Origin: Microbacterium sp. W4I20
GTDB lineage: Bacteria; Actinomycetota; Actinomycetes; Actinomycetales; Microbacteriaceae
Reading direction: 5' to 3'
DNA: 64,000 bases
Assembly: GCF_030816505.1 (NCBI RefSeq)
Contig: NZ_JAUSYB010000001.1
Coordinates: forward strand, 2,604,001 to 2,668,000
Positions 50,466 through 56,043 of the stretch are shown here, one piece after another. The notes beneath the pieces were generated by a model. The model did not search any database and had not been told where the DNA came from. It saw only the letters and a program-made list of their open reading frames with translations. The position numbers and the translations under genes are program-made. The number at the start of each line of letters is the position of its first letter. Positions within the stretch are counted from its first letter, which is position 1.

Positions 50466-50918
50466 ATGGCAAAGCTGATTCTCACGAACGAGGTCGCCGG
50501 ACTGGGTAGTGCCGGTGACGTCGTCGAGGTCAAGAACGGGTACGCCCGCAACTTCCTCATCCCGCAGGGTTTCGCCACGGCGTGGACCCGCGGTGGCGAA
50601 AAGCAGGTCGCTTCGATCCAGGCCGCGCGTCAGGCACGCGCGATCCACGATCGTGACGACGCTGTCGCACTGAAGAACGCGCTCGAGGGCACGAAGGTCC
50701 GTCTCGCCGTCAAGGCAGGCGCCGCCGGTCGTCTCTTCGGTTCGGTCAAGACCGACCACGTCGCGGATGCTGTCGCAGCCGCCGGGCTCGGCTCGATCGA
50801 CAAGCGCAAGGTGCAGATCACCTCGCCGATCAAGTCGACCGGTGACCACGAGGCCACCGTTCGTCTGCACGACGACGTGACCGCGGTCATCACGCTGCAG
50901 GTCGTCGCGGCCAAGTAG
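50466..50918 (+). CDS. rplI: Ribosomal protein L9
   Basis: L9 of the large subunit, 150 residues: [33 protein letters not shown] is the N-terminal rRNA-binding domain, followed by the long connecting helix and a C-terminal domain ending [17 protein letters not shown]. It is the last gene of the operon and is followed by a strong terminator. Confidence 0.97.
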
Positions 50919-50930
50919 TTCGGTAGCACG

Positions 50931-50962
50931 AACGCCCCCTGTCCTTCGGGACAGGGGGCGTT
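50931..50962 (+). terminator. Strong intrinsic terminator of the rpsF operon
   Basis: AACGCCCCCTGTCC (50931-50944), TTCG loop, GGACAGGGGGCGTT (50949-50962): a perfect 14-bp stem with a stable UUCG tetraloop, 12 bp after the rplI stop. Confidence 0.92.
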
Positions 50963-51286
50963 CTGCGTGTCCGCCGCCGGCACGTTTTTCGGGCCCTTCC
51001 ATCTCTTGCGGCCGGTTCCGCGCGGATTCTCCGCAGAACGTGGGATCGGCCGAAAAACCTGGGCAGGCAGGAAGGGCGGATGCCGGTCACGCCCCGGCTG
51101 CCCGCGCGAAACACTCGGACAGCTGGCGGCAGGAGGGCAGGACGGATGCCCCGTGGGCGCGAGCCCACGGGGCACCCCCTTGCGTCCGTACGCGCACGAC
51201 CGGATCGAGATCCGTCCGTGCGCGACGCGGACGCACCGGCGGTGCGGGTCTCCTCCCCGAGGACGGCCGCACCGCCGGCGTCTGCG
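50963..51286. other. Non-coding gap with stacked hairpins
   Basis: No gene is seen between rplI and the chaplin-like gene. The gap holds an AT-rich inverted pair, GTTTTTCGGGCC (50984-50995) and GGCCGAAAAAC (51048-51058); TGCCCCGTGGGC-GCGA-GCCCACGGGGCA (51147-51174), a perfect 12-bp stem; an imperfect long stem at 51181-51235 (TGCGTCCG with CGGACGCA ends); and CCGGCGGTGCGG/CCGCACCGCCGG (51236-51278). The last of these lies just after the stop of the leftward gene and is its probable terminator. Confidence 0.7.
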
Positions 51287-53017
51287 CTACGCCATCGAGT
51301 GACGACGGCGGAGCAGCCCCGCGCCTCCGAGGAGGAGCAGGAGGGCCAGCCCGACCAGGCCGATGACCGAGGTGCCACCGGTCATCGCGAGACCGTCTGC
51401 AGCGTCGGCCGCAGCGGCCCCGGATGCCGGCTCAGCACCGGTACCGGTTCCCGGGTCCGTTCCCGGGTCAGTCCCGGGGTCGGTGCCAGGGTCTGTTCCC
51501 GGGTCGGTACCCGGGTCCGTGCCGGGGTCGGTTCCCGGGTCGGTGCCGGGGTCGGTTCCCGGGTCGGTGCCAGGGCCCGTACCCGGGTTGGTGACCGTGC
51601 TCTCGCCGACCACCGCGATGGCGTTGCCGCCGATGGTGATCGGGAGGTTCACCGGAAGCGCGATCTGGCTGCCGCCGAGGATCGAGTCCAGGCCGGAGGT
51701 GTCGATCCCGCCGATGCCCGGAAGCATCGGGGCCGGGGCCGCACCTGCTCCGCCGCCGGTCACCGCGCTGGTGCCGAGGACCGAGACGGCGTTGCCGAGG
51801 ACGGATACCGGTGCGGTGACGGGCGCGAGCACCTGGGTGCCGCCGGCGAGCGAGTCATCCCCGCCCGTCGTCACGTCGCCGCCGGTGCCCGCTGCCGGGG
51901 CCGCACCTGCTCCGCCGCCGGTCACCGCGCTGGTGCCGAGGACCGAGATGGCGTTGCCGAGGACCGCCACGGGGGCGGTGACCGGAGCGACGACCTGCGT
52001 GCCGCCGGCGATGCCGTCGGTGCCGGACGTGCCGGCATCCGACGGTGTGCCCGTGGAGCCGCCGGATGCGGGAGCTCCCGGTGCGCCGGTGACCGAGCCG
52101 GTGCCGAGCACGGAGATCGCGTTGCCGACCGCCGAGATCGGTGCGGTGACGGGTGCCACGACCTGCGTGCCGCCGAGGATCGAATCGTCTCCCGACGTCG
52201 TCCCCTCCGTCGCGGGCGCCGATCCCGTCGCCGCTGCGCCGGCCGTCGAGCCGGTGGCCGAACTGGTGCCGAGCACCGAGATGGCGTTGCCGCCGACGGT
52301 GATCGGCGCGGTGACCGGTGCGACGACCTGGGTGCCGCTGCCCACGGCATCCGTCCCGTCGGTCTCCGCCGCGACCGGCGAGGTGGTCGCGGGCGCCGGT
52401 GCTGCGGCTCCCTGCCCTGCCACGCCGCTGGTGCCGATCACCGAGACGGCGTTGCCCGACACGGTGATCGGAGCGTCGACCCGCAGCAGCGCCTGCGTGC
52501 CCGAGAGCACGCCGTCGATGCCGCTGGTCGTCACGGACGGCACTCCAGCCGCGGGAGCCGGGGCCTGGGGAGCCCCGCTCTGGGAACCCGCGGCCGGAGT
52601 GCTGGTCGAGGAGGTGCCGAGCACGCTCACGGAGTTGTTCGTGACCGTCACCGGCACTGTCACCGTGACCACGGCTTGGCTGCCGGATGCCGCGCCGGAC
52701 TCACCGCTCGTGTCAGCGACGGGAGCCGCGGGGGTAGCGGGGGCTACCGGCGCCGCGGGGGCAGCGGGCGGGGGTGGCGGCGGTGTCGGTGCCGGCGGCG
52801 TAGCGGCGGCAGGTGCCGTCGCGGCGGAGGTGCCGAGCAGGGAGATCGCGTTGTTCACGACCGTGATCGGCGCGGTGATCGGTGCCACCGCCTGCGTGCC
52901 GGAGAGCAGACCGTCGTCTCCGGATGTCTCGGCGGCGTTCGCGGCCGTCGCGCCGAACAGGGTGATCCCGCCGGCGATGAGCGTGCCCCAGAGGGCCCGC
53001 TTGAGGGAAGTACGCAT
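51287..53017 (-). CDS. Cell-wall surface protein with eight chaplin-like repeats and LAxTG anchor
   Basis: A 576-residue secreted protein: signal peptide (residues 1-29, ending ATAANAAE), then eight repeats of about 24 residues (for example SGTQVVAPVTAPITVGGNAI and the following SVLG; the last is GGSQIALPVNLPITIGGNAI), separated by Ala/Pro/Gly/Thr-rich linkers, then about ten PGTD tetrapeptides and an LAMTGG anchor followed by a membrane segment and RRRH tail. The repeat pattern SGxxxxxPVxxPVxVxGNxVSVIG matches the Streptomyces chaplin domain but lacks its two cysteines. LAxTG suits sortase class E. The ATG at 53017 follows AGGAG. Probable coat-forming, amyloid-like surface protein; not tested. 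Confidence 0.8.
   Translation of the reverse strand: MRTSLKRALWGTLIAGGITLFGATAANAAETSGDDGLLSGTQAVAPITAPITVVNNAISLLGTSAATAPAAATPPAPTPPPPPPAAPAAPVAPATPAAPVADTSGESGAASGSQAVVTVTVPVTVTNNSVSVLGTSSTSTPAAGSQSGAPQAPAPAAGVPSVTTSGIDGVLSGTQALLRVDAPITVSGNAVSVIGTSGVAGQGAAAPAPATTSPVAAETDGTDAVGSGTQVVAPVTAPITVGGNAISVLGTSSATGSTAGAAATGSAPATEGTTSGDDSILGGTQVVAPVTAPISAVGNAISVLGTGSVTGAPGAPASGGSTGTPSDAGTSGTDGIAGGTQVVAPVTAPVAVLGNAISVLGTSAVTGGGAGAAPAAGTGGDVTTGGDDSLAGGTQVLAPVTAPVSVLGNAVSVLGTSAVTGGGAGAAPAPMLPGIGGIDTSGLDSILGGSQIALPVNLPITIGGNAIAVVGESTVTNPGTGPGTDPGTDPGTDPGTDPGTDPGTDPGTDPGTDPGTDPGTDPGTGTGAEPASGAAAADAADGLAMTGGTSVIGLVGLALLLLLGGAGLLRRRHSMA
51448..51591. repeat. 12-bp minisatellite encoding PGTD repeats
   Basis: About twelve imperfect 12-bp units (variants of GGTCGGTTCCCG on the plus strand) encode the PGTD stalk of the chaplin-like protein between its last repeat and the LAMTGG motif. 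Third-position changes differ between units, so it is not a recent duplication, but copy number may vary between strains. Confidence 0.85.
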
Positions 53018-53128
53018 GATGTTTCTCCTGACTGGAGCTGGGGATATCTGGATGGGTTGCGTGCGATGTGGAGTGCGCGCGCAGCACAGCATCTGCCGTC
53101 CACTGGGGAAGGACGGCGCGACAGCCAG

Positions 53129-54148
53129 TCAGTCAGGAGAGACGTCGGTGTCGGCGACCGGCGACGTCGGCAAGGCGTCGTCGGATGCACCGGAGACCCG
53201 CTCCCAGGCACGGAGCGGGGGCGCGCCGACGTCGCTGATGCGAGCGAGGGCGCTGGAGGATGCTCCGCCGGAACCGGCGGAGGAAGACGGGGAGACCGGA
53301 GATCCGGGCGGTGATCCCGAGGGCACGTCAGAAGGTGCTCCCGGAACCCCGAACCCGTCGGCGGAGTCCGTGGATGATGCAGTGGGGGCTGCGGGCTGGA
53401 CGCCGGCGAGCTCGGGGGTGAAACCGTGGACGGAGAGGCCCGCGGACAGGCTCGCGACGAGGACCTGCGTGGCCGGGCCGCCGCTCGAGATACCGGGACC
53501 ACCGGGGCCGTCCGTACCGTCGGGGCCGTCGATGTCGCCGGGATCCGTCGGATCGATGACCTCGAGGACGGGGGGAACCGTCTCCTCGACGACTCCGCCG
53601 ATCACACCGGCCGTGTCGTCGACGACTCCGATGACTCCGTCGATCAGGTCGACGGCGCCGAGATCGTTCACGAGCTCGCCGACGACAGGAAGGCCGCCGA
53701 CGGCATCCACGATGGGGTCGGTGATCTGCGCGACGGGAGAATCCGAGAGTACGTCGGTCACGGGTGTGGCGACCTTCGCCGCGGTGTCGGTGACCGCCTT
53801 GACGACGGGCTTGACCACGGGTGCGACGACCGGGCCTGCGACCGGAGCCTTCGCGACGGTCTGGGTCACGGTGTTGACGACCGCGGGTGCCACCTGCTGC
53901 ACGGGAGCGACGACGGTCTTCACGACCGGAGCCACCACCTGGGTCACGACGGGGGTGACGGGTGCGGTGGCCGCGGAGACCGTCTCCTTCACGATGGAGG
54001 TGATGCCGTCGAGCGGGCCGTCCGACTGTTCGTCGGCGTGGGCCGTGCCGCCGCCGGCGAAGAGCGTGAGGGTCGCCCAGATGAGCGCGCCGAGGCCACC
54101 CCAGATGACGACGGCGGGAACGCCGCGTCGGGTGGCCCGAGCGTCCAC
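53129..54148 (-). CDS. Secreted Pro/Val-rich protein beside the chaplin-like gene
   Basis: A 339-residue protein of unknown family. The GTG at 54148 has GGGGGAGG five bases before it. Signal: TRRGVPAVVIWGGLGALIWATL then AGGGTAHADE. The mature part is mostly valine/alanine/proline repeats such as VVAPVVKTVVAPVQQVAPAV and PVVAPVVKPVVKAV, then DGPDGTDGPGGPG and a Ser/Gly/Pro-rich C-terminus with no anchor motif. It lies 111 bp upstream of the chaplin-like gene on the same strand, so the two may be one transcript and a shared surface structure. Gene of unknown function; low complexity makes homology hard to judge. Confidence 0.65.
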   Translation of the reverse strand: MDARATRRGVPAVVIWGGLGALIWATLTLFAGGGTAHADEQSDGPLDGITSIVKETVSAATAPVTPVVTQVVAPVVKTVVAPVQQVAPAVVNTVTQTVAKAPVAGPVVAPVVKPVVKAVTDTAAKVATPVTDVLSDSPVAQITDPIVDAVGGLPVVGELVNDLGAVDLIDGVIGVVDDTAGVIGGVVEETVPPVLEVIDPTDPGDIDGPDGTDGPGGPGISSGGPATQVLVASLSAGLSVHGFTPELAGVQPAAPTASSTDSADGFGVPGAPSDVPSGSPPGSPVSPSSSAGSGGASSSALARISDVGAPPLRAWERVSGASDDALPTSPVADTDVSPD

Positions 54149-54368
54149 GTCAACCTCCCCCTCTGAAGGCAACGCATCACCGACGCGAAAGTGCGTCGAT
54201 GCGCTGACGATACTCCCGGCGGAGGCTCTTGTCCAGAGCCATTCCGCTCAGTTCTGGAGCGTCGGATCACGAAGACGCGCCCGGCGAAAACCCGGCTTGA
54301 CTTTCAACAAGTTCTACACATGTCGTCACAGGACGGGGCAACCTTCAATCACGCATTGAGGTCGATTC

Positions 54369-54511
54369 TCATCCACAGGCTGGGGAATCGGAAAACCCCT
54401 GTTCACAGCGATTAAGAAAACCGACATGCGATGCAGTCCACCGGGTTATCCACACCCGTTCTTCACAGACACTCCGGCTTTGTCCGCACGCTCTCCACAG
54501 AGTTATCCACA
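54369..54511. promoter_or_regulatory. DnaA-box cluster upstream of dnaB
   Basis: In the 520-bp gap before dnaB there are two perfect DnaA boxes, TTATCCACA at 54446-54454 and 54503-54511, and one with a single mismatch (TCATCCACA, 54369-54377), in a relatively A/T-rich stretch (54300-54520). No gene is seen in 54173-54669. It may allow DnaA control of dnaB; the distance to the chromosomal origin is unknown. Confidence 0.7.
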
Positions 54512-54669
54512 GGCCGTGTTGCACCCGATTCAGACCGCTCGTACCGTGGTCGAGCGACCGAATGTCGGGGGCTCCTGGTTCGCTGTGTGCACGCGGCCGG
54601 AACGGCCGGAAGGCCGCGGCACCGCCCCATGAGGGCACATTCGTGAAACGTCGCATCGAAGGGAACCGC

Positions 54670-56043
<1,374 letters not shown>

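Follow-up and report, generated by a model that had tools for sequence, protein, structure and literature searches.

A predicted RNA helix between an upstream partner gene and a multi-chaplin surface protein gene in Microbacterium

We found that the gene for a chaplin-type surface protein in a Microbacterium genome lies directly downstream of a gene for an exported-looking partner protein, and that the final codons of the partner gene, together with its stop, are predicted to pair with the ribosome-binding site of the chaplin gene. We judge it likely that partner and chaplin form one expression unit, translationally coupled by RNA unfolding. The repeats, the anchor motif, the linkage of the two genes and a helix marked by codon constraint and covariation are established by computation, and from them we infer coupling in cells. 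By a small margin we also favour a broader proposition, namely that a two-gene chaplin system has gone unrecognised in Microbacteriaceae and in members of two or more other families of the order. In it, a dedicated exported partner would accompany a multi-chaplin wall protein, and an RNA helix in the partner's last codons would keep the two in step, the chaplin never being made without the partner. The partner gene and the RNA helix are the elements added here to a first-pass annotation of the same DNA. Positions refer to the window, the whole 64,000-nucleotide stretch of DNA that was analysed (Table 1).

Chaplins are known for coating aerial hyphae. Microbacterium is not known to be filamentous, and a chaplin with a partner gene in this genus bears on chaplin function before aerial growth. 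Surface attachment may have preceded aerial growth as the role of chaplins, according to the available part of a review (PMC4255298).

Table 1. Features of the partner and chaplin genes, in window positions.
Feature	Position	Strand	Basis
Sigma-70-like promoter match upstream of partner gene	54207..54235	-	one in 50850-54700; shuffles mean 0.1
Partner gene, 339 aa, exported-looking, Val/Thr-rich, ends DVSPD	53129..54148	-	GTG start at 54148 after GGGGGAGG; signal-peptide-like start
Helix left arm, UCUCCUGACUG, partner's last codons and stop	53130..53140	-	fold, codon and window controls
Inner hairpin between arms, compensatory changes	53095..53117	-	alignment: 5/6 pairs changed on both sides
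Helix right arm, chaplin ribosome-binding site CAGUCAGGAGA	53024..53034	-	fold; predicted tail pairing 0.99
Multi-chaplin surface protein gene, 576 aa	51287..53017	-	ORF; PF03777 70.2 bits, eight stretches
Signal-peptide-like N-terminus, residues 1-28	52934..53017	-	read from sequence; kept in relatives
Chaplin repeat 1	52820..52936	-	repeat alignment; own-genome profile match
Chaplin repeat 2	52604..52720	-	repeat alignment; own-genome profile match
Chaplin repeat 3	52421..52537	-	repeat alignment; own-genome profile match
Chaplin repeat 4	52256..52372	-	repeat alignment; own-genome profile match
Chaplin repeat 5	52091..52207	-	repeat alignment; own-genome profile match
Chaplin repeat 6	51923..52039	-	repeat alignment; own-genome profile match
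Chaplin repeat 7	51761..51877	-	repeat alignment; own-genome profile match
Chaplin repeat 8	51593..51709	-	repeat alignment; own-genome profile match
PGTD stalk	51425..51592	-	12-bp tandem repeat at 51445-51592; sequence
LAMTG sorting signal, hydrophobic segment, RRR tail	51290..51391	-	sequence; NF058582 below cut-off

The chaplin-type repeat protein and its relatives

The 576-residue protein matches the Pfam chaplin profile PF03777 (ChpA-C) at E 1.4e-19 (70.2 bits, cut-off 21), and its repeat region without the rest of the protein scores 74.9 bits. Neither a shuffled version of this region (one shuffle) nor its reversal matched any Pfam family. The chaplin pattern that the first-pass annotation had read from the letters is confirmed by profile. 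The eight stretches were counted at a lax threshold of 10; in the PF03777 search, no repeat reaches E 0.001 alone (0 stretches). Repeats start at residues 28, 100, 161, 216, 271, 327, 381 and 437. Eight repeats of 24 residues had been proposed: the number stands, but the conserved unit spans ~36-39 residues, the 24 corresponding to its GTQ...VLG core, with 54-72 residues from one start to the next. Aligned, the repeats share a unit of 39 columns, seven of which are invariant. They were also correctly described as free of cysteine, of which there is none after the signal peptide. The accessible text of PMC13251363 defines a chaplin domain by three GN motifs, 12-13 residues apart; the repeats here have a GTQ/GNQ and a GNA position and no third GN. 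Profile matching found only one chaplin gene in this genome.

The C-terminal part agrees with the LAxTG-type anchor on a PGTD stalk reported earlier. Tandem PGTD repeats are followed by LAMTG at residues 543-547, a hydrophobic stretch and RRR; the score against the NCBIfam model NF058582, 24.7 bits, falls slightly short of the cut-off of 27. A search for a sortase E gene, suggested at the same time, returned one: the single PF04203 match in the genome is of class E (NF033747 228.5 bits, cut-off 160), and PDB SrtE1 is among its matches. Elsewhere in the genome, at G000:C1:2076537-2077109 and outside the window, a 1148-codon open frame is matched mainly in the stalk and is perhaps another surface protein.

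Chaplin-protein matches occur in 33 of 58 whole genomes. Since 26 of the 35 same-genus genomes match, some in the stalk or signal peptide only, the protein is common but not universal in Microbacterium; among 31 genomes of another family of the same order, only six matched. A scan of named genomes by signal-peptide patterns found 109 loci, of which 80 were kept. By record title, Microbacterium accounts for 77 of these, with DnaB up to 97% identical, in keeping with the Microbacterium-like host assumed at first. All but one of the kept loci were parsed (79/80; the exception, L105, was parsed in a second set), and 69 of the 79 parsed chaplin proteins are complete. Complete named relatives carry 4-11 repeats (L092 left out, its start being mis-parsed), and 66 of the 69 have LxxTG near the end, the others being L045, L062 and L065. 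No repeat contains a cysteine among 80 proteins (79 scan loci and the window). Separately, 10 cysteines follow the signal peptide in L045, perhaps a frameshifted relative, and in the second set L125, L128 and L022 have cysteines in some repeats (4, 1 and 1, respectively).

To call the structure novel, as the first-pass annotation did, overstates the case for the protein itself. Besides its frequency within the genus, several relatives already bear the NCBI names 'chaplin family protein' or DUF320, and a chaplin-like gene has already been published for Arthrobacter chlorophenolicus, which does not sporulate (PMC4255298, in the part available). Chaplin domains without cysteine have precedents in ChpE (PMC3079736) and in the C-terminal domain of ChpB (PMC13251363), and reduced chaplins still build fibrils (PMC3079736), as stated in the accessible parts of these papers. 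The 576-residue protein is ordinary: it belongs to a known family and exceeds the classic number of two repeats.

A putative role of the repeat protein in a coat, adhesion or biofilm is plausible. Instead of a chaplin-like amyloid former, the protein may be a stalked adhesin that folds much like a beta-solenoid, and its profile match would then reflect short shared beta-hairpin units. The structure model, of modest confidence (pTM 0.61), has short stacked strands, and many of its loose structural matches are beta-solenoids. Absence of cysteines and of the third GN motif, by the definition in the available text of PMC13251363, also suits an adhesin. However, Foldseek returned zero matches at E<=0.001, structure models of this kind may be artefacts of repeats, and PF03777 matches 42 of 43 chosen relatives. 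Chaplin alignment A5 has 43 hand-chosen rows. We consider an adhesin of this kind possible but doubtful, and keep to the chaplin-type assignment below.

The partner gene upstream

The partner protein matched no family in a Pfam search, and those of its relatives that bear a name, among the matches listed, are called 'hypothetical' or 'uncharacterized' only. Its structure model, of low confidence, is helical and then disordered. We regard the partner as a concrete candidate factor for chaplin export or assembly. A promoter search over 50850-54700 found no match between the partner and chaplin genes.

An upstream open frame ending in DVSPD or a close variant is present at 78 of the 79 parsed scan loci by a wider ending pattern (75/79 by the narrower first one). 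The tail is missing from L109 owing to a different end of the upstream frame; there the frame (L109:5076-5930) keeps a partner-like start and has its end in another frame, possibly through a frameshift or an assembly error. Within the fetched stretches, dnaB is present at 74 and rplI at 60 of the 80 scan loci, and a single partner sequence finds matches at 64 of the 80. The same kind of one-sequence search matched six of eight listed same-genus genomes and none of six listed same-family genomes of other genera, so the partner diverges fast. With Microbacterium as the host, this family is Microbacteriaceae by taxonomy.

A second set, mostly of other genera, comprised 33 loci, of which 27 were parsed and 26 are distinct (L105 and L137 gave identical results); it includes one same-genus locus, L022. 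Where several upstream frames were present, a frame ending in P[DGE] was preferred, and an upstream frame ending in PD or PG was found at all 27 parsed loci. A partner profile matches 25 of these 27 frames at E<1e-4, E being that of this small set. The exceptions are L143, without a match (0.55), and L023, with a weak one (0.007); a longer piece of L023 scores 1.8e-9. In the fetched stretches, neither dnaB nor rplI was present at any of 20 loci from other genera, including one from another family, so the linkage of chaplin and partner outlives their location.

The partner proteins also share a feature ahead of the end. In a hand-chosen alignment of 33 rows (A3), a DDxLPxSP stretch ~10-17 residues before the end is kept and its codons are not unusual; since this conservation is at the protein level, the tail could have a function in the protein as well.

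The helix at the chaplin ribosome-binding site

In the window, the UCUCCUGACUG tail and the CAGUCAGGAGA site form 11 uninterrupted predicted pairs. The predicted fold of the region reaches -56.4 kcal/mol (z -3.0), which 2 of 200 shuffles equalled. The genes are spaced 111 nt apart here, 75-134 nt in the scan and 67-164 nt in the second set.

We tested the helix on 78 sequences, the window and 77 scan loci (L092 left out because of its mis-parsed chaplin start). The predicted probability that the site pairs with the tail exceeds 0.5 in 74 of 78 (median 0.98) and lies below 0.5 in L051, L063, L083 and L103. With the tail masked, as it would be by a ribosome, the site was freed in 70 of 78, the median free fraction rising from 0.02 to 0.38 and the mean only to 0.39. 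Arms fit their own partners: own arms, flank included, pair at -21.0 kcal/mol and arms swapped between species at -18.4 (0/10000 permutations as good), and the 15 coding bases alone give -16.7 against -15.6 (0/10000). With the tail recoded synonymously, pairing falls to -11.5 kcal/mol, a loss of ~5 (0/300 as good). When 289 windows of the own gene were slid against the site, none beat the tail in 53 of 78 sequences, and the tail was in the best 5% in 74 of 78.

Codon choice is constrained at the very end of the partner gene. Proline is encoded by CCG in 48 of 74 cases at codon -13 and 29 of 62 at codon -10, and in 0 of 78 at codon -2; serine is encoded by TCG in 30 of 46 at codon -11 and 0 of 75 at codon -3. 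The stop is TGA in 78 of 78. Alignment A4, made of 44 of the 78 sequences with the divergent rest left out, has 93.9% of cells paired, compared with 27-49% when slid. In it, 43 cells are changed on both sides against 14.9 in shuffles, most of them in the inner hairpin; four outer pairs never vary, and two outer-stem pairs have 8 and 10 unpaired cells. For two other counts the excess is not clear, with 6 pairs that change on both sides (shuffles 4.5, reached by 56/500) and 13 additional pair types (shuffles 12.7, reached by 312/500). In a wider set, the Ser/Thr codon varies at its first base together with the base after the site's GGAG/GGGG: A goes with T in 12 of 13 and T with A in 62 of 82 (7/104 unclassified). 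The second set by itself gives a Fisher p of 0.005, uncorrected for kinship; permutation and Fisher tests overstate significance because the species are related.

As read from the sequences, the helix is found again in other genera, with compensatory changes and with the two genes at a distance from rplI and dnaB. The tail is in the best 5% of windows at 24 of 27 second-set loci, and L125, L127 and L129 do not stand out in these sliding controls. We examined seven further loci, of which L175 was unparsed and L172 and L180 repeat L019 and L023. The four new ones, from another family of the order, end in FDPGSSPD with TAG stops and show the same pairing, their tails ranking within the top 2.4% of windows. 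L177 alone gives a clear match to the partner profile (5.6e-7), with 0.074 in L176, 0.67 in L173 and none in L174.

The helix could be real and serve another end, being opened by temperature, a small RNA or an RNA-binding protein, or setting mRNA processing or stability, with no coupling involved. The covarying inner hairpin between the arms is more structure than simple coupling requires, and the spacing is long for coupling. Yet the left arm contains the stop codon, and its constant part, the last codons and TGA, places the terminating ribosome there. Moreover, an Rfam search of 52900-54600 found no known element, its sole match lying on the other strand (20.8 bits; gathering score 79). We consider such a role of the helix improbable. 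Far less credible still is that the -DVSPD end is only a protein motif, for a protease or export factor, and its complementarity to the site a by-product: D, P and D are conserved, as is LPxSP further upstream without unusual codons, but CCG and TCG vanish at the last positions only, pairing is lost on synonymous recoding, the Ser/Thr exchange tracks the base at the site and swapped arms pair worse. RNA pairing at least partly explains the nearly invariant C-terminal peptide of the partner.

Proposed coupling and known systems

Under translational coupling, both genes would share one transcript, with the partner, an exported protein, encoded first. In this mRNA, the end of the partner gene, from its last codons through the stop, would hide the chaplin ribosome-binding site by pairing. 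A ribosome ending on the stop codon, which is part of the left arm, would open the helix, and chaplin would be made only where partner had just been made. The chaplin protein would then be exported and anchored at LAMTG, presumably by the class E sortase, and the PGTD stalk would hold the repeats off the wall, where the beta-rich units could build a hydrophobic or adhesive layer, possibly amyloid. The partner probably aids export or assembly of the aggregation-prone chaplin chain, and the purpose of coupling may be that such a surface chain is not made without it. The predicted helix allows a sharp reporter test of coupling.

Downstream sites held in a structure that upstream translation opens are described for E. 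coli rpmI-rplT (+52 nt) and phage f1 genes VII-IX in the available part of PMC12548453, according to which coupling is most efficient at short spacing. The present case differs in that it concerns a surface-protein pair, has its left arm in the upstream gene's last codons and stop, and is predicted from sequence; its spacing is longer, the 75-134 nt of the scan exceeding the +52 nt cited there for rpmI-rplT.

The long chaplins ChpA-C of Streptomyces are likewise exported, with chaplin repeats and a C-terminal sorting signal (PMC3079736, accessible part), and a class E sortase is also present in this genome. They have two repeats where the present protein has eight without the cysteine pair, and here a single chaplin gene is joined by an upstream partner gene and an RNA helix. 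ChpE also has a chaplin domain without cysteines and still forms fibrils (same source, in the part available), but it is a single short domain without a sorting signal. Proteins named 'chaplin family protein' or DUF320 in Microbacterium, Nonomuraea, Microbispora and others are homologous through PF03777; these were compared by database name. CwpA and CwpB of Actinoplanes missouriensis are likewise hydrophobic wall proteins dependent on a class E sortase, although their authors conclude, in the accessible text, that they have no chaplin domains (PMC13251363).

Both genes of the window are also overlain on the plus strand by an antisense open frame of 998 codons (51363-54359), which is probably a by-product of G+C-rich codon use and not a gene.
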